Below, one piece after another: positions 31,483-44,464 of a stretch of 64,000 nt of DNA; position 1 is the first letter of the stretch; each line of letters opens with the position of its first letter. The stretch comes from Rhodothermus profundi (GTDB taxonomy: Bacteria > Bacteroidota > Rhodothermia > Rhodothermales > Rhodothermaceae). The stretch lies in the NCBI RefSeq assembly GCF_900142415.1, contig NZ_FRAU01000001.1:1-64000 (forward strand), read 5' to 3'. Position numbers and translations under genes: made by a program. A model generated the notes under the pieces. The model did not search any database. It was not told the origin of the DNA and worked only from the letters and a program-made list of their open reading frames with translations.

Positions 31483-32310
31483 ATGATAACCCTGACCGTC
31501 TGCAATCATAAAGGAGGTACCGGCAAAACCACAACAGCGATTCATCTGGCGGCGGCGCTGGGGCTCAGCGGTCGTCGCGTGCTGGTCATTGATCTAGATC
31601 CTCAGGGATTTCTGACGCGGGTCATGGGGGTCCCCGAACCCCCTGAAGAGGATTCGGTGCTCGCCCTCTTCAATCCGTCGATTTCGTTGCGAGAGGTACG
31701 TCGCCATTCGGTAGGGGGATTCGATCTGCTTCCCTCCTCAACGGCTATGACGCGCGTGATGCGTCAGCTCAACCGGCCCACCGATGTGCTCTGGACCAAA
31801 GAGGCATTGGAGCAGAGCGGGCTGGATTATGATGTGGTCATTTTTGACACGGCGGCTGCTATTACGGTTTACAGTTTGAACGCTCTGGTCGCCAGCCAGC
31901 ATGTGCTTGTGCCGGTAACGCCTGAATATCAGCCCGTGCTTGGCGCTGAGCAGACGGCCCAGACCGTACAACTGGTGCGCAAAAAGCTGAACCCGACGCT
32001 TTTCCCACCCCTTTTTCTCTTTACCCAGGTAGATGCCCGTAAACGGGCCCATCTGCTCTACCGGCGTTATCTGCGGCGGCGCTATGGGGATCGCGTGCTG
32101 GAGACAGTTATCCGCACCAGCGCCTCGCTGGCTCGTTCGTTCGAAGACGGCTCTACAGTGTTTACGCGGGAGCCGCACGCCCGCGGCGCACGGGATTACG
32201 CCAATGCTACCGATGAACTCATGCGACGTATCCAGCAGGATCGAGAAGCAGGGGCCGCGCAGATAGCGTGGAACGCGCCAGCGCCGCCTCTTCAGGAAAT
32301 GCGTCCATAA
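31483..32310 (+). CDS. Orphan ParA/Soj-family ATPase
   Basis: 275 residues. The deviant Walker A motif is at the very N-terminus, CNHKGGTGKTTTAIHLA, followed by VIDLDPQG and a Walker B region VVIFDTAAA, where Soj proteins usually have DTPP. No parB or plasmid gene lies nearby, so a role in chromosome partition is not supported; such orphans often position other cargo. It diverges from lnt and converges on the sensor-exonuclease gene, overlapping its end by 19 bases. Confidence 0.9.
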   Translation: MITLTVCNHKGGTGKTTTAIHLAAALGLSGRRVLVIDLDPQGFLTRVMGVPEPPEEDSVLALFNPSISLREVRRHSVGGFDLLPSSTAMTRVMRQLNRPTDVLWTKEALEQSGLDYDVVIFDTAAAITVYSLNALVASQHVLVPVTPEYQPVLGAEQTAQTVQLVRKKLNPTLFPPLFLFTQVDARKRAHLLYRRYLRRRYGDRVLETVIRTSASLARSFEDGSTVFTREPHARGARDYANATDELMRRIQQDREAGAAQIAWNAPAPPLQEMRP

Positions 32311-34148
32311 CGCGTGCGGGCCAGGCGCGTTTGCTGAGAGACGGCGCGCGCCTGGCGCAACGTGTGAATGCCGCGCTGCTCAAGCAGCGGCAGCAGCCGC
32401 AGGAAAAGCTCGGCCGTAATCAGGGCATCTCCCAGAGCAGAGTGGCGCCCGATGGGCTCAATCCCAAAGGTGGCCGCCAGTTCATCGAGCCCGTAGTGCT
32501 GGCGTTCCGGATCGACCACGGCTGCCAGCAGCATGGTGTCGAGCACCGGTTGCTCAAAGCGTATGGCTAACGTCTTTTCTTTCTCGCGAATGAATCGTAA
32601 ATCAAAGGCTACGTTATGCCCGACCAACACCGTGTCCTGAGCAAAGCGATAAAATCGAGGCAGCACCTCTTCAATAGAAGGCTTGTCCTGCAGCAAAGCC
32701 GGTTGGATGCCGTGCACGCGCACCGCGTTCAGCGAAAGGGGACGACGCGGATTAACCAGTTGGTCAAAGGTTTCTTCGCGGCGAATGCGGCCGCCCACAA
32801 TGCGCACAGCGCCAATGGCAACGATTTCATCCCCCTGCTCCGGGTGCAGGCCTGTTGTTTCGGTGTCAAAGACGGTGTAGAGCAGGCTGCGCAGGGGCCG
32901 GTCGTCAAGCGGCGTCGTTGCCGGGGTTTCTAGCAACGAAAAGTCGGCGTAAATGGGGCGGTTGATAATCAGCGGACCGGCCAACAGGGCACGCGCTGCA
33001 CCTGCATGTGAAGGAGCAGCAGCCGGGAAGACCAGATGCAGGGTCTTGTCCTCAACCTGCAAGGTGGCCTGGTGGGTTTGCAGCAGGGTCTGAAACGAAT
33101 CGGCCTGGACATAATCCATCACCCGTTTGGGGTGGAGAAAACTCCCATCAAGCGGCTGAAGCCACAGGTGTACCTGCGCGTTGTCTGACGCAATGCGGGC
33201 GCTTAGCTGCGTGCAGGACGTTTCTTGATGCAATTGATAGACCAGTTGATAGAGCAGCTCAAAGGCATCGGGCAAGCATACGCGCATCCAGGCCGCATGG
33301 GCAGCTCCCTTGAGCTGCAGCGAAACGCCAGCTTCCTGGGCCAAGCGCCTGCGTAAGGCTTGCAGCAGGTCAACGCCGCGGATGGTTTCAAGCGGACGGG
33401 AGGCGGGCGTCAGCGGACGCAGCAGCAGCACAAAGGTATCGAGCCGATGGACTGGGTCCTGAATTGGAGTTGCGCGCCCCTGCACGAAGTGGCCAGATGG
33501 CAAAAAGGTAGCAAAATGCACCGCAGGGTGAGGCTGCGGACGACGGATTTGATAAGCCAGCTCGTCCAGAACAAAGGCGATGAGCTCACGGTCGAGGCAG
33601 TGAAAGATCGAGCGCCCCAGGCCAATGGTCCCCGGCTGCTCAGGTGATTCCAGCAGGCGGCGGGCTGCTTCGTTGTAGAGGAGGATTTGACCGGATGCTC
33701 GGCATACCAGGACGGCTTCGGGCAGGTCTCCCAGTAAGGAGGCCAGCACCTTGCGTTCATGGTGGGCGTAGCTGGAAGAAGAGGCGGACGGCTGAAAGCG
33801 ATGGCGGCGGGCCAGTTCCTCCACAGCCTCCTGCAATTGTTTAAGTTCAGGCGTCGTTGCCGGCGTAAGGGGAGGAAGCGGATGGCCGGCCAGGACCTGA
33901 TGCAATGCGTCTGTAAGCTGCTTGATGGGGCGCACATGCGTCTGATACACATGGAGCCAGAGGGCATAGATGCCTCCCAGGACGAGCACCACCAGTACCA
34001 ACAGGAAAGGATAGCGCGAAAGCAGCCAGGTCCGCTCTGATGGTGTTGCGCTCAGCCACCAGATCACGTTGGGGGCAGCCAGCAGCGATAGCCCCAGCAG
34101 GGCCAGGACAACGTAAGTTTTCCAGAAGCGGCGAGAAAACGGCATCAT
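32292..34148 (-). CDS. Membrane PAS sensor fused to DEDDh 3'-5' exonuclease
   Basis: 618 residues from the ATG at 34148. Two membrane helices (about 10-32 and 45-66) lead to a HAMP-like linker (VRPIKQLTDALHQVLAG), a PAS domain (about 130-245, VLVCRASGQILLYNEAARRL), and a region (about 260-400) that looks like a histidine-kinase core without its catalytic motifs. The C-terminal 190 residues are a DnaQ-like exonuclease: VFDTETTGLHPEQGDE, GHNVAFDLRF and GRHSALGDA give the DEDDh residues, all present. Related sensor-exonucleases occur beside acs and symporter genes in Proteobacteria. It is divergent from the ArsR-like gene across a palindrome, and opens the carboxylate locus. What a membrane signal does to the nuclease is unknown. 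Confidence 0.9.
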   Translation of the reverse strand: MMPFSRRFWKTYVVLALLGLSLLAAPNVIWWLSATPSERTWLLSRYPFLLVLVVLVLGGIYALWLHVYQTHVRPIKQLTDALHQVLAGHPLPPLTPATTPELKQLQEAVEELARRHRFQPSASSSSYAHHERKVLASLLGDLPEAVLVCRASGQILLYNEAARRLLESPEQPGTIGLGRSIFHCLDRELIAFVLDELAYQIRRPQPHPAVHFATFLPSGHFVQGRATPIQDPVHRLDTFVLLLRPLTPASRPLETIRGVDLLQALRRRLAQEAGVSLQLKGAAHAAWMRVCLPDAFELLYQLVYQLHQETSCTQLSARIASDNAQVHLWLQPLDGSFLHPKRVMDYVQADSFQTLLQTHQATLQVEDKTLHLVFPAAAPSHAGAARALLAGPLIINRPIYADFSLLETPATTPLDDRPLRSLLYTVFDTETTGLHPEQGDEIVAIGAVRIVGGRIRREETFDQLVNPRRPLSLNAVRVHGIQPALLQDKPSIEEVLPRFYRFAQDTVLVGHNVAFDLRFIREKEKTLAIRFEQPVLDTMLLAAVVDPERQHYGLDELAATFGIEPIGRHSALGDALITAELFLRLLPLLEQRGIHTLRQARAVSQQTRLARTRYGRIS

Positions 34149-34190
34149 GCCGCCGCATTTGATTTTCGGCCTGTTCCGCTGTAAGATAGA

Positions 34191-34204
34191 AACAAATATT
34201 TGTT
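34191..34204. promoter_or_regulatory. AACAAATATTTGTT palindrome, likely ArsR-family operator
   Basis: Perfect 14-base palindrome in the 83-base gap between the divergent sensor-exonuclease and ArsR-like genes, 27 bases before the regulator's ATG. AT-rich palindromes of this type are usual sites for ArsR/SmtB dimers. It also overlaps an in-frame TTG upstream of the exonuclease start. Confidence 0.6.
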
Positions 34205-34231
34205 GCAAGTAGGAAAGGAAGTCCCCTGATC

Positions 34232-34567
34232 ATGGTGGCAGAGCAGGCTCCACTGGTACCGGAAGCGCTGCTAGAACCGGTAGTTCGTCGGTTACGGGTG
34301 CTGGGCGATCCGGTTCGGCTACGGTTGCTGAACTTGCTGCGCACCCGAGGTGAGCTGAGCGTGCAGGAAATGGTAGATGCTCTGGGGGTTCGGCAGCCCA
34401 GCGTGAGCAAGCATCTAAATCAACTGGCCCGTGAAGGGCTGGTGCATCGGCGGCGGGAAGGGGTGCACGTGCACTACCGCCTTGCCGACCCCTCGCTGGC
34501 GGGCCTGTTTCTGCTGCTGTGCCGAAGCGTAGAAGCTCGCGTAGACGGAGCCATCAAGCAATCATGA
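34232..34567 (+). CDS. ArsR-family transcriptional regulator without metal ligands
   Basis: 111-residue winged-helix regulator. Motifs are VLGDPVRLRLLNLLR, the recognition region GVRQPSVSKHLNQLAREGLV and a wing (RRREGVHVHYRLAD). The alpha-3 metal site ELCVCDL of ArsR is replaced by ELSVQEMV, and only one cysteine is present, so metal sensing is unlikely. The stop overlaps the ATG of the next small membrane protein (ATGA). It probably represses its own operon and the divergent exonuclease through the palindrome at 34191; the ligand is unknown. Confidence 0.9.
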   Translation: MVAEQAPLVPEALLEPVVRRLRVLGDPVRLRLLNLLRTRGELSVQEMVDALGVRQPSVSKHLNQLAREGLVHRRREGVHVHYRLADPSLAGLFLLLCRSVEARVDGAIKQS

Positions 34568-34770
34568 CCCGCGCGCGCCTTGTAGCCCTGTTTGTACTGG
34601 GCCTGCTGCTGATGAATTTTCCCCTGCTTTCGCTCTTTAGCCAGGATCACCTGGTGCTCGGGGTTCCTGTGCTCTACCTGTACCTTTACGGTACATGGGG
34701 GGTGATCATCGGGCTGCTTGTATGGCTGATGGAAGGGCGGCGGTCGCCGCCTACCGAAGAGAATCCCTGA
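34564..34770 (+). CDS. Two-helix small membrane protein, DUF3311-like
   Basis: 68 residues with two membrane helices (about 4-22, LVALFVLGLLLMNFPLLSLF; and about 33-53, PVLYLYLYGTWGVIIGLL) and a short acidic tail. It looks like DUF3311, the small partner found before sodium:solute symporters; in Pseudomonas a small gene (cbrX) likewise precedes and couples to cbrA. Its ATG overlaps the regulator stop and its own stop lies four bases before the symporter-kinase start, so it is surely co-expressed and perhaps a subunit of that protein. Longer reading from 34519 is a regulator shadow. Confidence 0.8.
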   Translation: MTRARLVALFVLGLLLMNFPLLSLFSQDHLVLGVPVLYLYLYGTWGVIIGLLVWLMEGRRSPPTEENP

Positions 34771-34773
34771 GCC

Positions 34774-37533
34774 ATGCTGCCGGGCGGCTACATTTTTCTC
34801 CTTGCGCTGCTGTACATCGGGCTGCTGTTCGCCATTGCTACTTATGGCGACCGGCGCGCCGAGCAGGGGCGAAGCATTATCAGTAGCCCGTACATCTATG
34901 CGCTTTCGCTGGCTGTTTACTGCACGGCCTGGACCTTTTACGGAAGTGTGGGGCGTGCAGCCAGCAGTGGCGTAGGCTATCTCCCGATTTATCTGGGGCC
35001 TACGCTGACGGCCGTGCTGTGGTGGATGGTGCTGCGAAAGATGATACGCATCAGCAAGGTCTATCGCATCACCTCTATTGCCGACTTTATTGCCTCTCGG
35101 TATGGCAAAAGTAGCGGACTGGCCGCCCTGGTTACTGTGATCGCTGTAACGGGCGGGGTCCCTTACATTGCGCTGCAACTCAAAGCCATTTCGGTAAGCT
35201 TCCAGGTGTTGAGCGGGCGTCCTATGCCCGCTCCTACCGAAAGTTTTCTGGATGATACGGCGCTTTACGTAACGTTGGCGCTGGCGCTGTTTTCCATTCT
35301 GTTCGGGACGCGACATCTGGATGCGACGGAGCGGCATGAAGGACTGGTGGCGGCCATAGCCTTTGAATCGCTGGTCAAGCTCCCGGCCTTTGTGGCGGTG
35401 GGCCTGTTTGTAACCTTTGGCCTGTACAATGGACCGGCCGATCTATTTGGCCATGCGCTGGCACGTCCGGAGCTTCGGCGATTGCTGACCATGGAAGAGG
35501 CGCTGGGCCCGGGTGCCTACGGCCAGTGGTTCTGGATGACGCTTCTGGCCATGCTGGCGATTCTGTTTCTGCCGCGCCAGTTTCAGGTGGCCGTAGTTGA
35601 AAATGTAGACGAACGGCATCTTCGTAAAGCGATCTGGTTGTTTCCCCTGTACCTGTGGCTTATTAATCTGTTTGTGTTGCCTATTGCCCTGGCCGGTCTA
35701 ATGGCATTTCCCGGGGGGCAGGTTGATGCCGATATGTTTGTACTGGCGCTGCCGCTGGCTCATGGACAGGAGCTGCTGGCACTGCTGGCGTTCATCGGCG
35801 GGTTTTCGGCCGCTACCAGCATGGTTATTGTGGCCACGGTAGCGCTCAGCACCATGATCAGCAATGATCTGATCATGCCCATTCTACTGCGGATCCGGTT
35901 TTTGCGGTTGGCGCAGCGTGGGCGGCTTACCGGGTTGCTACTGGGTATTCGTCGCGGAGGAATTGTGCTGGTACTGGTGCTGAGCTACCTGTACTTTCAC
36001 GTCATTGCGCATGCTTACGCCCTGGTATCCATTGGGTTGATTTCCTTTGCGGCAGTGGCGCAGTTTGCTCCGGCGATCCTGGGAGGAATGTACTGGCGTC
36101 GCGGAACGCGTGCCGGGGCACTCTGCGGCCTGCTGGCCGGTTTTCTGATCTGGGGCTATACGCTGCCGCTGCCCTCTCTGGTCGATGCCGGGCTGCTGCC
36201 GGTGTCTTTCATTGAAGAAGGGCCCTGGGGAATCGGCTGGCTTCGTCCGTACCAGCTTTTTGGGCTGGAAGGGTTTGATCCGATTGCGCATGCCCTGTTC
36301 TGGAGTTTGCTTTTCAACGTAGGCCTGTATGTAGGCGTATCGTTATTTACGCAGCAGCGGGTAGAAGAGCTGCTGCAGGCGCGGGCTTTTGTGGACGTGT
36401 TCCGGTTGTCCGGGCGTCCCGGCGAGGCTACCTGGCGGGGAACGGCCTACGTGGCCGATTTGCAGCAGTTGCTGCGCCGGTTTCTGGGGAAGCGGCAGGC
36501 TGATGAGGCGCTGCGGCCGGTGCTGGCGCAGGGGGCCAATACGGTGACGGCTACGGCCGAGGTGGTGCAGCACGCTGAGCGCCTGCTGGCCGGTGCGATT
36601 GGATCAGCGTCGGCCCGGGTGCTGATTGCCTCGGTGGTGAAAGAAGAGCCGCTAAGCCTGCGCGAAGTGATGGACATTCTGGACGAGACGCAACAAGTTA
36701 TCGCCTATAGCCATGAACTGGAGCGTAAGTCGGCTGAGCTGGAACGGGCCACGAAGGAGTTGCAGGAAGCCAATGAACGCCTGAAAGAGCTGGACCGACT
36801 CAAAGATGAGTTCATTTCCACCATTACGCATGAGCTGCGCACGCCGCTGACGTCGATTCGGGCCTTCAGTGAGATTATGCATGCCAATCCAGGGTTGCCC
36901 GAAGCGCAGCGGCAGGAGTTTCTGGGAATTATCATCAAAGAAGCGGAGCGGCTAACGCGGTTGATCAATCAGGTGCTGACGTTGCAAAAGCTGGAGTCGG
37001 GTGTGATGGAGCTGAATCTGGAGCCGGTGCGCATGCAGGAGGTGATTGAGGAAGCGGTCGAGGCAATTCAGCCGCACGTGCAATTCAACAGGATTACCCT
37101 GAGGGTTTCGGTGCCGGAGACCCCCTGCTACGTGCTGGGCGACCGTGACCAGTTGGTGCAGGTGGTGCTGAACTTGCTATCAAATGCGGTTAAATTCTGC
37201 AATCCAGAGGAGGGGCGGATTGCTGTTCGGCTGACTGTGGAGCCAGACCGCGTGCAGGTAGACGTAGAAGATAATGGACCGGGCATTGCACCGGAGGATC
37301 AGGCAACGATTTTTGATAAATTCCGGCAGGTGCACACGAGTGCGGGCAAGCGTCCACCAGGAACAGGGCTGGGCCTGGCCATTGCGCAGCGCATTGTGCA
37401 GTATCACCATGGCCGCATCTGGGTGGAAAGCGAACCGGGCGCGGGTGCCACGTTTTCGTTTACGTTGCCGCGTTTGCCGGAATCTGACGGTACGCCCCAA
37501 CGCCTGCAAGATACTTCCAAGCTGGATATTTAA
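34774..37533 (+). CDS. Sodium:solute symporter-histidine kinase fusion (CbrA/CrbS type)
   Basis: 919 residues. Residues about 1-530 are a sodium:solute symporter (about 13 helices; SIADFIASRYGKSSGLAAL), then a STAC domain (about 536-612, TWRGTAYVADLQQLLRRF), a coiled coil (about 640-675), HisKA with the phospho-acceptor near residue 684 in STITHELRTPLTSIRAF, and HATPase (about 760-905) with NLLSNAVKF, DNGPGI and GTGLGLAIA. Such proteins (CbrA in Pseudomonas, CrbS in Vibrio/Shewanella) govern carbon use and acs. It sits directly before a receiver, a pseudo-kinase and acs, so acetate or a related carboxylate is the likely signal. Whether the symporter half carries solute or only senses it is not known. 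Confidence 0.93.
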   Translation: MLPGGYIFLLALLYIGLLFAIATYGDRRAEQGRSIISSPYIYALSLAVYCTAWTFYGSVGRAASSGVGYLPIYLGPTLTAVLWWMVLRKMIRISKVYRITSIADFIASRYGKSSGLAALVTVIAVTGGVPYIALQLKAISVSFQVLSGRPMPAPTESFLDDTALYVTLALALFSILFGTRHLDATERHEGLVAAIAFESLVKLPAFVAVGLFVTFGLYNGPADLFGHALARPELRRLLTMEEALGPGAYGQWFWMTLLAMLAILFLPRQFQVAVVENVDERHLRKAIWLFPLYLWLINLFVLPIALAGLMAFPGGQVDADMFVLALPLAHGQELLALLAFIGGFSAATSMVIVATVALSTMISNDLIMPILLRIRFLRLAQRGRLTGLLLGIRRGGIVLVLVLSYLYFHVIAHAYALVSIGLISFAAVAQFAPAILGGMYWRRGTRAGALCGLLAGFLIWGYTLPLPSLVDAGLLPVSFIEEGPWGIGWLRPYQLFGLEGFDPIAHALFWSLLFNVGLYVGVSLFTQQRVEELLQARAFVDVFRLSGRPGEATWRGTAYVADLQQLLRRFLGKRQADEALRPVLAQGANTVTATAEVVQHAERLLAGAIGSASARVLIASVVKEEPLSLREVMDILDETQQVIAYSHELERKSAELERATKELQEANERLKELDRLKDEFISTITHELRTPLTSIRAFSEIMHANPGLPEAQRQEFLGIIIKEAERLTRLINQVLTLQKLESGVMELNLEPVRMQEVIEEAVEAIQPHVQFNRITLRVSVPETPCYVLGDRDQLVQVVLNLLSNAVKFCNPEEGRIAVRLTVEPDRVQVDVEDNGPGIAPEDQATIFDKFRQVHTSAGKRPPGTGLGLAIAQRIVQYHHGRIWVESEPGAGATFSFTLPRLPESDGTPQRLQDTSKLDI

Positions 37534-37539
37534 CGGACG

Positions 37540-37941
37540 ATGACGACAAGCCGGACGCCCTATGTGTTGATTGTCGAAGACGAGCCCAGCATCGCGCTGT
37601 CTCTGCGCTTTTTGATGGAGCAAGAAGGCTATCGGGTGGAGGTAGTCGAAGACGGTGAAGCTGCCCTGGAAGCCTGTCGGAAGACGCCACCCGATCTGGT
37701 ATTGCTGGACGTCATGCTGCCGGGCATGAGTGGCTTTGAAGTATGCCAGCGGCTGAAAGCGCGGTCGGATAAAAAGGCCATTAAGGTGGTGTTGGTAACA
37801 GCGCGGGGACGAGAGGCTGACCTGGAGAAAGGGCGGGCTGTTGGTGCCGATGCCTACATTGTCAAGCCGTTTGCCATTCGCGACGTCATGCATACGGTGC
37901 ATCACCTGTTGAACCGATCTGGCGAAGCAGGGAAGCCTTGA
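37540..37941 (+). CDS. Stand-alone receiver domain protein (CheY-like)
   Basis: 133 residues, receiver only. Acidic pocket EDEP, phospho-acceptor Asp in LVLLDVMLPGMSG, Thr and Lys of the switch in LVTARG and IVKPFA. No DNA-binding or enzymatic output follows; the stop overlaps the TTG start of the pseudo-kinase gene (TTGA), a coupled arrangement. It starts six bases after the symporter-kinase, so it is the natural phosphate acceptor of that kinase. In the known acs systems the regulator carries a LuxR or NtrC output, so the missing output must be supplied by protein contact. Confidence 0.92.
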   Translation: MTTSRTPYVLIVEDEPSIALSLRFLMEQEGYRVEVVEDGEAALEACRKTPPDLVLLDVMLPGMSGFEVCQRLKARSDKKAIKVVLVTARGREADLEKGRAVGADAYIVKPFAIRDVMHTVHHLLNRSGEAGKP

Positions 37942-38888
37942 AAACACCTGAAACAGATAGACTGGCAGCTGCCCTGGAGGCCCTGCCGGTAGGGGTGGTT
38001 ATTTGTGATGCGGAAGGAAGGGTAGCGTGGGCGAATCAGAGAGCCCGGCAGTGGCTGGCTGTACCGGTAGCAGATCTGTCAGACTGTAGCCTACCGGCGT
38101 TGCTGGCAGGTCTTTCCTGGCCACCTGGGGAGGCCGCGTGTCACGTCCGAGGCGCTACGGGCCAGCTTCTGGCGGTTCAGGCATGGCCGCTGGCCTCGGC
38201 AGGCTTTGTCGTGCAGCTTCAGCCGGTCCATGCGCAGGCAAGCGACTGGCAACCCTTGCTGTTGCGGCAATTGCTGGAAGGGTTGCGCCGGCCGGTGGCG
38301 AACATTCGGGCTGCTATTGAGACGCTCACCGCCTATCCAGATATGGCCCCGGACCTGGCCGCGCAGTTTCAGCACATCATTCTGGAGCAGACAGAAGCGC
38401 TGACCCGGCTGCTGGAGACCACGGTTGCGGCCTATACCCGGTATGTGCAGACCCACTGGCCGCTGGAGTGTATGGCAGTCGGGGAGCTGCTTCAGATGAT
38501 GGCAGACGCTCTGGCGCAGCAGATGCTCAGCGTGCAGATCGAAGCGGGCCATAACCTGCTCATTATGGTGCGGGCAGACCGTCGGCTCTGGCGCCAGCTC
38601 TGGGAGCGCCTGGGACGACAATTGCGTCAGCTTGTTAGAACAGGCGCAAGCTGTTCCCTTTCGGCTACGACGGGTGATGGACTGGTCTGGATTGAGCTGC
38701 AATGGCAGGGACGGCGCCTGCAGCCGGAGCGGTTGCAGCGATGGCTGACGCAGACGCTGTCGCTGGATGAGCAGGGCCTGTCGCTCACGCTTGCCGAAGT
38801 GCTATCCTGGCACGAGGCAGATCTCTGGGTGCAGAGCGAGGCAGACGGCCACCGGCTTCGCCTGGTATTGCCGGCAGTGCGGTCATAG
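37938..38888 (+). CDS. PAS protein with degenerate histidine-kinase core (pseudo-kinase)
   Basis: 316 residues, soluble. An N-terminal PAS domain (about 8-100, GVVICDAEGRVAWANQRAR) is followed by a helical hairpin like HisKA in which the phospho-acceptor block reads LEGLRRPVANIRAA, with Glu where HELRTP has His. The ATPase part lacks the N-box asparagines (RLWRQLWERLGRQL) and the DxGxG motif, but ends like a kinase (EADLWVQSE...LRLVLP). Catalysis is therefore very unlikely; a docking or phosphate-sink role for the receiver just upstream is inferred. The start is TTG at 37938, overlapping the receiver stop. Transcript likely ends or continues into the AT-rich region before acs. Confidence 0.82.
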   Translation: MKTPETDRLAAALEALPVGVVICDAEGRVAWANQRARQWLAVPVADLSDCSLPALLAGLSWPPGEAACHVRGATGQLLAVQAWPLASAGFVVQLQPVHAQASDWQPLLLRQLLEGLRRPVANIRAAIETLTAYPDMAPDLAAQFQHIILEQTEALTRLLETTVAAYTRYVQTHWPLECMAVGELLQMMADALAQQMLSVQIEAGHNLLIMVRADRRLWRQLWERLGRQLRQLVRTGASCSLSATTGDGLVWIELQWQGRRLQPERLQRWLTQTLSLDEQGLSLTLAEVLSWHEADLWVQSEADGHRLRLVLPAVRS

Positions 38889-39043
38889 CTATTATATTCC
38901 CTTAAAAGAATATAATATTCCCTCTTGCATTTCTTGCAAAAATTTTTTATTACATCTCACAGATCCTTCAAGGGGAGCAGGGCGGCGGAGTCAGGATGAA
39001 ATTGCTATTTATTCTTCTACGGGAATAAAAAGTGCAAGGAGCC
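38889..39043 (+). promoter_or_regulatory. AT-rich upstream region of acs with two inverted repeats
   Basis: The lowest-GC stretch of the locus, 155 bases. ATTATATTC (38891-38899) and GAATATAAT (38908-38916) form a perfect nine-base repeat around eight bases, and TTGCA-N5-TGCAA lies at 38925-38939, followed by an A/T tract. A clear Bacteroidota promoter box was not found. Probably the acs promoter and a binding site for an unknown regulator; the first repeat may also stop the upstream transcript, but no T-run follows. Confidence 0.5.
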
Positions 39044-41029
39044 ATGGGTGTTCAGGAACCGGTCAACGCTACAGCAGCCTATTCGGGGCGCGGGTTGGTC
39101 TTCGAGCCACCGGAAGCGTTTCGCAAAAGGGCTTTCATCAGCTCAATGGAGCAGTATCGGGAACTTTACGAGCGCTCCATTAAAGATCCCGAAGGCTTCT
39201 GGCGCGAGCAGGCGCAACGCATTACCTGGTTCGAGCCGTTTCATACGGTCAAAAACACCTCGTTTGATCCCTCGAATCTCTACATTCGCTGGTTCGAGGG
39301 CGGCAAGCTAAATGCCGCGTACAACTGTATTGACCGGCATCTGGAAAAACGGGCCGACCAGGTGGCCTTCTACTGGGAGCCGGACAATCCGGATGAGGAG
39401 GGCAAGGCAATCACGTACCGCCAGCTTTATGAAGAAGTCTGCCGGCTGGCCAACGTGCTGAAAAAGCATGGCGTCAAGAAAGGCGACCGCGTAACGATCT
39501 ATCTGCCCATGATCCCGGAGGCCATCTATGCGATGCTGGCCTGCGCGCGGATCGGGGCCATCCATTCGGTGGTCTTTGCCGGTTTCTCCCCCGATTCCCT
39601 GGCTGACCGCATCCTGGATGGCGAAGCCACCTACCTGATCACAGCGGACGAAGGGCTGCGGGCCGGACGGCGCGTGCCCCTGAAGCGCAATGCCGACCAG
39701 GCGCTGGAACGCTGCCCGGATGTCAAGACAGTGCTGGTGGTGCGCCGCACCGGGGGCGACATCAACTGGGTGGAAGGCCGGGATCGGTGGTATCATGAAG
39801 AGATTCAGACGGTCTCGGCCGAGTGCCCTCCCGAAGTGATGGATGCGGAAGACCCCCTCTTTTTCCTCTACACGTCGGGCTCGACCGGTAAACCGAAAGG
39901 CGTGGTGCATACAACCGGTGGATATCTGGTCTATGCTTCGCTCACGCATCAGTTTGTCTTCGACTATCACGAGGGCGACATCTACTGGTGTGCAGCTGAC
40001 ATTGGCTGGATCACGGGGCACAGCTACATTGTCTATGGTCCCCTGGCCAATGGCGTAACGGAAGTGCTTTTTGAAGGAACGCCCACCTATCCAGATCCCT
40101 CGCGCATCTGGCAGGTGGTGGACAAGTACCAGGTGAACATTCTGTACACTTCGCCCACAGCTATTCGGGCGCTCATGCGCGAAGGAGATGAGTGGGTGAA
40201 AAAAACAAGTCGAAAGTCGCTTCGGTTGCTGGGAACGGTCGGAGAACCGATCAATCCGGAAGCCTGGCTCTGGTATTACCGCGTGGTGGGCGAAGAGCGC
40301 TGCCCGATTGTGGACACCTGGTGGCAGACCGAAACGGGCGGAATTATGATCACGCCACTGCCCGGTGCTACGCCGCTCAAGCCGGGTTCGGCTACGTTGC
40401 CGTTCTTTGGGGTGCAGCCGGCCATCGTGGACAACGACGGAAATATCTTGGAAGGCACAGCCGATGGCATGCTGGTCATTCTTGACTCGTGGCCAGGCCA
40501 GATGCGCACCGTCTACAGGGCGCATGATCGATTTGTGCAGACCTACTTCACGCGTTTCCCGGGCAAGTACTTTACGGGAGACGGAGCGCGTCGGGACGAG
40601 GACGGCTACTACTGGATCGTAGGCCGGGTCGATGACGTGATTAACGTGTCCGGCCACCGACTGGGTACGGCTGAAATCGAAAGTGCGCTTGTGCTGCACG
40701 AGGCGGTGGCCGAAGCAGCCGTGGTAGGCTATCCGCACGAAATCAAAGGGCAGGGCATTTATGCCTTTGTAACGCTCAAAGCAGGCTATGCGGCAAGTGA
40801 CCAGCTCCGCCAGGAATTGATTCAGCATGTGCGGAAGGTGCTGGGGCCCATTTTCACGATTGATTTGCTGCAGTTTACCCCAGCGCTTCCCAAAACGCGC
40901 TCCGGTAAGATCATGCGCCGCATCCTGCGCAAGATTGCCGCGAACGAATACCAGGACCTGGGGGATACGTCCACACTGGCCGATCCGTCGGTCGTTGAGG
41001 AACTGGTGCAGAATCGGCTCAACCGCTGA
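39044..41029 (+). CDS. acs: Acetyl-CoA synthetase
   Basis: Cytoplasmic AMP-forming ligase of 661 residues that makes acetyl-CoA from acetate, ATP and CoA. Motifs: the P-loop [15 protein letters not shown], the acetate/adenylate region [13 protein letters not shown], the hinge [16 protein letters not shown] and the C-terminal acetylatable lysine in [15 protein letters not shown]. The start is the ATG at 39044, with AAGGAG just before it; a GTG at 39032 is less likely. It is the metabolic output of the locus: porin and symporter genes for carboxylate entry follow, and the symporter-kinase lies before it. Upstream is an AT-rich control region. Confidence 0.96.
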
Positions 41030-42461: not shown

Positions 42462-42752
42462 ATGGAGCAAATGGATCGCAAAACGTACTGGCGGGAAGTG
42501 CGCAAGCGTACCGCCTGGCTACTGGTTGTCTGGTTTTTCGTCGGGTACGTGCTCAGCATCTTCCTCGTCGAGCCGCTCAACACGCTGAAAATTGCGGGCG
42601 TCCCGATGGGGTTCTGGATGGCGCAGCAGGGAAGCATCATGATTTTCATCCTGCTGATTCTGGCTTACGCCATCATGATGAGCAAGCTGGACCGAGCTGC
42701 AGGGGTCGAGGAAGAGGCGGGTACGACCGCACCGCCTTCGCAGGCGCACTGA
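42462..42752 (+). CDS. DUF4212 symporter small subunit
   Basis: 96 residues with two helices (about 19-38, WLLVVWFFVGYVLSIFLV; and about 52-71, FWMAQQGSIMIFILLILAYA) and a charged tail. The phrase VPMGFWMAQQGS is typical of DUF4212 (putative sodium/substrate symporter small subunit), always found beside a VC_2705-type symporter. It lies 21 bases after the porin gene and 35 before the symporter. Probably required for assembly or activity of the larger subunit in the inner membrane. Confidence 0.93.
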   Translation: MEQMDRKTYWREVRKRTAWLLVVWFFVGYVLSIFLVEPLNTLKIAGVPMGFWMAQQGSIMIFILLILAYAIMMSKLDRAAGVEEEAGTTAPPSQAH

Positions 42753-42787: not shown

Positions 42788-44464
42788 ATGAGCATTATCG
42801 GTTGGACTTTCTTCTGGGTGGCGATTACATTCGCCGTCTATATCGGAATCGCCATCTGGAGCCGCGTAAAGGACACAGCCGGCTTTTACGTAGCTGGCCA
42901 GGGAATTCCCAGCATTGCGAACGGCGCTGCCGTTGCCGCCGACTGGATGAGTGCGGCCAGCTTTATCTCCATGGCCGGGCTGATTTCGTTCATGGGCTAT
43001 GACGGAGCGGTCTACCTTATGGGATGGACCGGAGGCTATGTGTTGCTGGCCGTGCTGCTGGCACCGTTCCTGCGCAAGTTTGGCAAGTTTACGGTGCCCG
43101 ACTTTGTCGGCGAGCGCTACTACTCCAATGCGGCCCGTGTGGTAGCCGCTATTGCTGCCCTGTTCGTTTCCTTCACGTACGTGGCCGGGCAAATGCGCGG
43201 CGTGGGCGTGGTCTTTAGCCGTTTCCTGCAGGTGGATATCGTCTGGGGGGTCATCATTGGAATGGCGATTGTCTCGCTCTATGCCGTGCTGGGCGGCATG
43301 AAAGGGATCACCTGGACCCAGGTAGCCCAGTATACCGTACTGATCATCGCCTACTTGATCCCGGCCTTCGCCATTGCCTACACGCTCACGGGCATTCCGC
43401 TGCCCCAGTTGGCGCTGGGAAAGGTGTTGCCTCAGTTGGACCAGCTTCAGTATGAACTCGTTGGCAACCTCTACAGCCAGCCGTTCAAGGGAAGCTGGGA
43501 CATGCTGAACGTCTTCTGCGTGACGTTTGCGCTGATGACAGGAACGGCTGGCCTGCCGCACGTCATTGTACGCTTTTACACCGTGCGGCGCGTGGTAGAC
43601 GCGCGCTGGTCGGCTTTCTGGGCGCTGTTCTTCATTGGACTGCTGTATCTGACAGCGCCAGCCGTGGCCATGTTTGCACGCTACTACATTCTGAACGCGT
43701 TTAGTGAGCTGGGGCCGACCGGCATGCTCGACCTGAGCTGGGTTCAGAACTGGGCGCAAACAGGGCTGATTCGCACGAGCGAGTGGAGCGAAGGCATGAC
43801 AGCAGCCGCGCTGCTCAGCACCATTGACCGTGATATCATTGTGCTGGCCACGCCAGAAATCGCCAACCTGTCGGCCTGGGTGGTCGGATTAGTGGCAGCC
43901 GGTGGACTGGCCGCAGCGCTTTCGACCGCTTCGGGACTGCTGCTGGTCATCGGCTCGGCCATGGCGCATGACATCTATGGCCAGATCATCAACCCCAGCG
44001 CACCCGATCACGTGAAGCTGACAGTTGCCCGGGTCATGATCTTTGTAGGTGTCGTGATTGCTGGACTGCTGGGCATCTTCCCACCGGGCTTTGTGGCGGA
44101 GGTTGTGGCCTTTGCCTTTGGGCTGGCTTGCTCCAGCTTCTTCCCGATTATTGTGCTGGGCGTGTTCTGGAAACGGTGCACCAAGGAAGGGGCCATCGCG
44201 GGCATGCTGACCGGCCTGATCTTTACCTTCACGCTGATTGTGCTGATGCGCGCCGACCGGGTGCTGGGGCTCGAAGAGCCTATTTTGAGCACCTTCCTGG
44301 GCATCAATGCGCAGGGTGTGGGCACGATTGGCATGATTCTGAACTTTATCGTGACGATTCTGGTCTCGCTGCGCACGCCGCCTCCGCCGAAGGAGGTGCA
44401 GACGCTCGTGGAGCAGATTCGCTATCCACGGGTGCTGCGGGCCGAAGAGCTGGAATCGGCCTGA
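42788..44464 (+). CDS. Sodium:solute symporter, VC_2705-like (acetate/carboxylate)
   Basis: 558-residue inner-membrane transporter with about 13 helices. The N-terminal DWMSAASFISMAGLISFMG and KFTVPDFVGERYYSNAA mark the sodium:solute symporter superfamily, near ActP but of the subgroup paired with DUF4212. It is expected to drive uptake of acetate, pyruvate or another short carboxylate with sodium. Neighbours acs, porin and DUF4212 back an acetate role; the substrate is inferred. A strong terminator follows the stop. Confidence 0.92.
   Translation: MSIIGWTFFWVAITFAVYIGIAIWSRVKDTAGFYVAGQGIPSIANGAAVAADWMSAASFISMAGLISFMGYDGAVYLMGWTGGYVLLAVLLAPFLRKFGKFTVPDFVGERYYSNAARVVAAIAALFVSFTYVAGQMRGVGVVFSRFLQVDIVWGVIIGMAIVSLYAVLGGMKGITWTQVAQYTVLIIAYLIPAFAIAYTLTGIPLPQLALGKVLPQLDQLQYELVGNLYSQPFKGSWDMLNVFCVTFALMTGTAGLPHVIVRFYTVRRVVDARWSAFWALFFIGLLYLTAPAVAMFARYYILNAFSELGPTGMLDLSWVQNWAQTGLIRTSEWSEGMTAAALLSTIDRDIIVLATPEIANLSAWVVGLVAAGGLAAALSTASGLLLVIGSAMAHDIYGQIINPSAPDHVKLTVARVMIFVGVVIAGLLGIFPPGFVAEVVAFAFGLACSSFFPIIVLGVFWKRCTKEGAIAGMLTGLIFTFTLIVLMRADRVLGLEEPILSTFLGINAQGVGTIGMILNFIVTILVSLRTPPPPKEVQTLVEQIRYPRVLRAEELESA

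Follow-up and report, generated by a model that had tools for sequence, protein, structure and literature searches.

A predicted pseudo-histidine kinase-exonuclease family recurrent beside organic-acid uptake and sensing genes

Why would a bacterium tie a complete exonuclease to the membrane, join it to a degenerate histidine kinase and keep it beside genes for carbon uptake? The question is raised by a gene of Rhodothermus profundi, located in the 64,000-nucleotide stretch of DNA analyzed here (hereafter, the window). We analyzed the predicted structure of its product, the relatives of this protein in other bacteria and the genes that surround them.

The fusion protein and its locus

The gene and the domains of its product are as follows:

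32292 to 34148, reverse strand: pseudokinase-exonuclease fusion gene (ORF of 618 aa, ATG at 34148, stop at 32292)
34050 to 34139, reverse strand: transmembrane helix 1, residues 4-33 (AF2 model; hydropathy peak at 13)
33891 to 34013, reverse strand: transmembrane helix 2 leading into a HAMP-like helix, residues 46-86 (AF2 model; HAMP 16.1 bits, below cut-off)
33405 to 33746, reverse strand: PAS domain, residues 135-248 (family HMM, 2e-34)
32991 to 33398, reverse strand: pseudo CA (histidine-kinase ATPase-like) domain, residues 251-386 (family HMM, 6e-25)
32403 to 32873, reverse strand: DEDDh exonuclease domain, residues 426-582 (RNase_T PF00929, E 3.4e-39, 135.5 bits, cut-off 24)

The full-length AF2 model, built with 56 natural sequences (mean pLDDT 86), places in order helices 4-33 and 46-86 with a short loop between them, coiled helices, the PAS domain, an alpha/beta sandwich and the exonuclease. 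The two membrane helices of the original prediction are recovered. Its HAMP domain survives as a HAMP-like helix only, the Pfam score falling under the cut-off, and its PAS domain is upheld by the family HMM and the AF2 model, though the Pfam score (15.0 bits) is again below cut-off. As the loop between the helices counts only about 12 residues, the fusion has no extracytoplasmic sensor domain, and any direct sensing must therefore be cytoplasmic or intramembrane. 'Membrane-anchored' is thus a more accurate description than the 'membrane sensor' initially proposed; the regulatory part of the fusion is the cytoplasmic PAS domain with the pseudokinase.

When the sandwich was modelled separately with AF2 (pLDDT 90.8), all of the top 50 Foldseek matches were histidine-kinase proteins or CA domains (probability 1.00, TM 0.6-0.75), with PrrB as the best (TM 0.75) and CpxA, PhoQ, HK853 and DivL (4q20) also matched. 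Together with the CA family HMM, this bears out the degenerate kinase core that had been suspected; the DHp helices, including the histidine site, were sought in the fusion by family HMM and alignment and are missing altogether. The DnaQ-type exonuclease was likewise read correctly, all five catalytic residues (D428, E430, D516, H569 and D574) being present. In Foldseek comparisons the exonuclease part resembles PolC, epsilon, DnaQ and DinG, and the N-terminal part resembles sensor kinases; among solved structures the nearest are PolC 2p1j, at about 40% identity, and DnaQ domains, with TM up to 0.88. The structure prediction proposed at the outset has in this way recovered both a CA fold and a PolC/DnaQ-like exonuclease. 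No NCBIfam equivalog fits the window exonuclease, which scores 108 bits against dnaQ_proteo (cut-off 223) and 137 bits against PolC (cut-off 873).

The genes beyond the start of the fusion gene are:

34232 to 34567, forward strand: ArsR-type regulator gene, oriented divergently to the exonuclease gene (PF01022, 2.7e-12)
34519 to 34770, forward strand: small membrane protein before the symporter-kinase, kept in congeners
34774 to 37533, forward strand: symporter-histidine kinase, CbrA/CrbS-like (SSF 1.6e-5, HisKA 2.7e-18, HATPase_c 5e-33)
37540 to 37941, forward strand: stand-alone receiver with no output domain, D57 (PF00072, 6.2e-30, 133 aa)
37938 to 38888, forward strand: soluble PAS-pseudokinase, 316 aa (family HMMs, DHp 3e-19, CA 4e-19)
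39032 to 41029, forward strand: acetyl-CoA synthetase, acs (PF00501, PF16177, PF13193)
42462 to 42752, forward strand: symporter small subunit, DUF4212 type (TIGR03647, 92 bits, cut-off 26)
42788 to 44464, forward strand: VC_2705-family sodium/solute symporter, ActP-like (TIGR03648, 751 bits, cut-off 321)

The locus thus runs from ParA through the exonuclease fusion to the divergent ArsR gene, the small membrane protein, the symporter-kinase and the receiver, and onward to the PAS-pseudokinase, acs, a porin, DUF4212 and the VC_2705 symporter. Full-length orthologues of the fusion, 71-74% identical, occupy the same locus in four congeners, and across the genus (n = 7) the symporter-kinase and the fusion are both present in five genomes and both absent from two. 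As in CrbS/CbrA-like modules, an SSF domain is fused to HisKA and HATPase_c beside a response regulator and acs/symporter genes; the DNA-binding response regulator of such modules is lacking in the window, where the 133-aa receiver stands alone. The H box of the symporter-kinase is intact (ITHELRTPL), and library models gave no match to a STAC domain at its symporter/kinase junction. The small membrane protein matched no family among the Pfam and NCBIfam models; its place corresponds to that of CbrX.

The 83-bp gap between the exonuclease gene and the divergent ArsR-type gene (34149-34231) could hold an operator from which this regulator controls both directions. At its other end, the exonuclease gene overlaps the ParA-like ATPase gene tail-to-tail by 19 bases (32292-32310), and the ParA-like gene adjoins the fusion in congeners as well. 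Scanning the window start for rRNA or another RNA family returned none.

The family and its gene neighbourhood

Relatives were sought in genome contigs with the exonuclease-domain alignment alone, making no use of neighbour information. While a whole-protein scan gave no matches in these contigs, the exonuclease domain retrieved 80 loci at 37-57% identity in many phyla, with relatives in Pseudomonadota, Thermodesulfobacteriota, Bacteroidota, Chloroflexota, Nitrospirota and Acidobacteriota. The 64 members with at least 380 residues upstream of the exonuclease were aligned as membrane-fused members. All five DEDDh residues are intact in 64/64, a count of which H and the third D form the unbiased part, since the search patterns demanded exo I or exo II; they are likewise invariant in 56 aligned members. 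Loss of a DEDDh residue in relatives, named beforehand as an observation that would speak against the original prediction, was therefore seen in none.

The kinase part has followed another course. At the column of the phospho-acceptor His, the 64 fused members include 31 with Glu, 18 with Asp and six with a gap, and none with His. Where ATP-binding N and G boxes would be expected, these members have no conserved Asn but a W-x-G signature (W in 56/64, G in 57/64). Furthermore, homology links the pseudokinase region with the kinase core of the symporter-kinases encoded next to it (hhalign 98.9%, E 1.4e-17). With five nuclease residues kept and the phospho-acceptor lost in the same proteins, we conclude that the nuclease is maintained and the kinase dead, and that the family is, judging from its sequences, a conserved pseudo-histidine kinase-exonuclease.

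The commonest architecture is 2TM-PAS-DHp-CA-exo, and the family has its own linker motif, RPEYYDFDLF. Shorter forms comprise 2TM-PAS-CA-exo (the window genus, L062, L065 and L079), 2TM-PAS-exo (L090, L096, L101, L109 and L118), 2TM-exo with neither PAS nor kinase (L041 and L106) and soluble exonucleases (L115, L119 and L124). Such a natural series, from full pseudokinase to CA only, PAS only, anchor only and soluble, offers a means of probing what a dead kinase does after the loss of catalysis. In a Rhodospirillaceae MAG (L121:9100-10582), a family exonuclease lies in a putative reading frame that is predicted to hold about seven membrane segments upstream of it.

Neighbour genes were mapped by tblastn. 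Symporter-histidine kinase, receiver, DUF294 nucleotidyltransferase, DUF4212/VC_2705-type symporter and acs genes recur, and a symporter-kinase, a symporter or DUF294 lies in the fetched flanks of 78 of the 86 family loci. DUF294 occurs within 4.5 kb in 61 loci and is a commoner neighbour than the receiver or the kinase; an ActP-like gene is found within 7.5 kb in 48 and acs within 10.5 kb in 23, so that the association with acs and symporter genes does extend to other genomes. Kinase, receiver and exonuclease follow each other in this order on one strand at 24 loci, and the order is receiver, exonuclease, kinase at four. The more specific partners of the fusion are the stand-alone receiver, the symporter-histidine kinase and DUF294. 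In three Desulfuromonas-like and deltaproteobacterial loci (L074, L078 and L081), DHp, CA and DEDDh are kept and no receiver, symporter, DUF294 or acs is nearby.

The controls were 20 further RNase_T loci, drawn from 12 genomes that also carry family loci. Symporter, symporter-kinase and DUF294 are absent from 16 of them. The four exceptions (L206, L210, L211 and L212), from Pseudomonas and Marinobacterium, are short genes for distant DEDDh exonucleases, each immediately adjoining DUF294; at the Pseudomonas locus L206, ActP and DUF4212 are further neighbours, in the arrangement described for P. aeruginosa PA3232-PA3235 (PMC9765439). Two further loci considered as phylum controls (L155 and L156) were discarded, both being short DEDDh genes with DUF294. 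Partners are thus present at 78/86 family loci and at 0/16 unrelated RNase_T loci: the carbon-uptake link first noticed in the window, that is, the link of the fusion gene to organic-acid uptake and sensing genes, is real and recurrent.

Receiver, pseudokinase and a possible chain of control

The regulator adjacent to the fusion is stand-alone in 45/45 loci, ending at most 18 residues past the receiver domain. Adjacent receivers conserve D57, K109 and the acidic pair, with the phospho-site present in 46/46. Having no output domain, such a receiver must act by binding something, and receivers are known to dock on DHp domains. A receiver adjoins 45 of 57 DHp-bearing members (12 being without one) versus none of 23 DHp-less members (Fisher 1.2e-11, uncorrected for kinship). 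On a quick exonuclease tree, which gives a kinship test of low power, we count at least seven DHp changes and two well-supported independent pairs, with none contrary, a result not significant alone. As independent events on the tree are few, the link between DHp and receiver is consistent but may still reflect shared ancestry.

In the window, the DHp absent from the exonuclease gene is present in the pseudokinase gene directly after the receiver. This gene (37938-38888) keeps the family DHp and CA, has Glu in place of the phospho-acceptor His and carries no exonuclease:

LLEGLRRPVANIRAA

Its sequence gives the impression of a pseudokinase half that was split off from the fusion or duplicated.

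We propose, with about even confidence in the full model, that the fusion is a membrane-anchored, signal-regulated 3'-5' exonuclease and serves as an effector in a CrbS/CbrA-like module by which short-chain organic acids would be sensed and imported. In its general form, the symporter-histidine kinase would phosphorylate the stand-alone receiver, which would then bind the membrane-bound exonuclease at its pseudo-DHp/CA core and alter the activity of the enzyme, much as DivK~P acts on DivL, another pseudokinase. A second input, metabolic or redox, may come through the cytoplasmic PAS domain. In the window genome, the receiver-docking half (DHp and CA) would reside on the separate gene, the exonuclease protein retaining anchor, PAS and CA, so that the signal may pass from receiver to soluble pseudokinase to exonuclease, or enter by PAS alone. 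Phosphotransfer, docking, control of nuclease activity and the effector role are all steps that we infer. Most likely, the enzyme would work at the membrane, shortening cytoplasmic nucleic acids from their 3' ends, probably RNA from transport and carbon-metabolism genes; we would give RNA an even chance of being the substrate, and DNA and oligo- or signalling nucleotides each a clearly smaller one. The nearest solved relatives act in DNA proofreading and the recurrent gene neighbours in transport and signalling, and the trimming of RNA or small nucleotides, as first suggested, is a candidate activity.

More tentatively, the arrangement may represent a two-component output distinct from both transcription and cyclic dinucleotides: from symporter-kinase to receiver to a pseudokinase gating a fused membrane DEDDh exonuclease, nucleic acid would be degraded, in at least six phyla. 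Should the receiver indeed gate the nuclease, trimming of RNA or DNA would form a new class of two-component output, and the expression of transporters and carbon metabolism could shift faster than through transcription. In many bacterial groups, the sensing of acetate-like nutrients may have nucleic-acid trimming among its outputs, hitherto unrecognised.

This model assigns no role to DUF294, although DUF294 is a commoner neighbour than receiver or kinase. We may also hypothesize, with distinctly less confidence, that the DUF294 nucleotidyltransferase, which also has cNMP-binding and CBS sensor domains, attaches nucleotides to some target (a protein, the end of an RNA or a short messenger oligonucleotide), from which the membrane-bound DEDDh enzyme takes them off again, so that writer and eraser together tune the symporter or kinase. 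Besides the frequency of DUF294 at family loci, this is suggested by the four short DEDDh controls directly beside DUF294 and by the PP_0354/PP_0353 operon (PMC9927547), which indicate that the pairing survives changes in exonuclease subfamily and in the membrane part. However, the cNMP-CBS-DUF294 gene of the window genome lies away from the exonuclease (L142:8326-10317, G000:C4), beside another transporter type, a neurotransmitter-type sodium symporter, and one congener (G151) has DUF294 and no exonuclease fusion.

Still less probable is a membrane-tethered mRNA-decay exonuclease set by PAS and localisation alone, in which the pseudokinase persists as an evolutionary relic and the receiver acts on something else. 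The PAS domain and the two helices do survive loss of DHp and CA in the five 2TM-PAS-exo members, and Henriquez et al. speculate on mRNA decay for PP_0353 (PMC9927547). Yet the receiver adjoins DHp-bearing forms only, and the retained W and G of the pseudo-CA signature point to selection on this domain, against the view of a relic.

An accessory exonuclease for DNA proofreading or repair, its N-terminal fusion being incidental, would agree with the closest solved exonucleases (PolC, epsilon, DinG and ExoX), but we hold it to be quite improbable, in line with the original prediction that DNA repair alone explains the gene poorly: recurrent neighbours are transport and signalling genes rather than replication genes (those outside the partner set being unclassified), scores fall far under the DnaQ and PolC equivalog cut-offs, and the genomes hold additional RNase_T genes of DnaQ-like length. 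Mere hitch-hiking in the neighbourhood with no functional link, which the eight partnerless family loci (some on short contigs) might suggest, deserves almost no credence, as the partners recur in at least six phyla and are lacking at the unrelated RNase_T loci of the same genomes. An anti-phage role was rejected: the PADLOC match concerns the generic DEDDh domain only, and the neighbours are metabolic.

Relation to known systems

Like CrbS/CrbR (MxtR/ErdR) and CbrA/CbrB, the module combines a symporter-fused histidine kinase and a response regulator with acs, an actP-type symporter and its small subunit, and in those systems too the regulon counts a DEDDh exonuclease and a cNMP/CBS/DUF294 protein among its members (PMC9927547, PMC5715377). 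It differs in having a stand-alone receiver instead of a transcription factor, and an exonuclease that is membrane-anchored and fused to PAS and pseudokinase. The fused protein was not found described in the literature searched, whose coverage excludes most subscription papers. We class the module as a variant of the CrbS/CbrA type with an unrecognised enzymatic output.

The proofreading exonucleases PolC and epsilon share fold and catalytic residues with the fusion, which is set apart by the lack of a polymerase context, by its own linker and by its sensory fusion. DivL of Caulobacter offers another parallel: a histidine kinase-like core without phospho-acceptor His, a matching CA fold and a stand-alone receiver as likely ligand. 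In DivL, a Tyr occupies the phospho-acceptor position, where the fusion family has Glu, Asp or a deletion, and the output of the fusion is a fused enzyme, a nuclease, rather than another kinase. Binding of the receiver as in DivL is suggested in the fusion family by gene adjacency and co-loss only. Membrane-associated HEPN RNases embody a similar idea, being membrane-tethered nucleases that have been proposed to answer a stimulus by cleaving RNA (Anantharaman et al. 2013, PMC3710099); their nuclease fold is unrelated and they have no two-component partner.

In P. putida, the MxtR/ErdR (CrbS/R) regulon includes a DUF294/CBS gene and the soluble putative RNase_T exonuclease PP_0353, whose deletion leaves growth on acetate normal and impairs growth on pyruvate (PMC9927547). 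The fusion may give a physical form to this genetic puzzle. PP_0353/PA3232-type proteins resemble it in their RNase_T domain, their pairing with DUF294 and their proximity to, or co-regulation with, actP/acs, but are soluble. The syntenic Pseudomonas gene at L206, taken as a proxy for PP_0353, is about 31% identical in the exonuclease domain and its NCBIfam ranking differs; PP_0353 would be no more than distantly related to the fused exonuclease domain. Both types, fused and PP_0353/PA3232-like, occur together in one Pseudomonas genome (L054).
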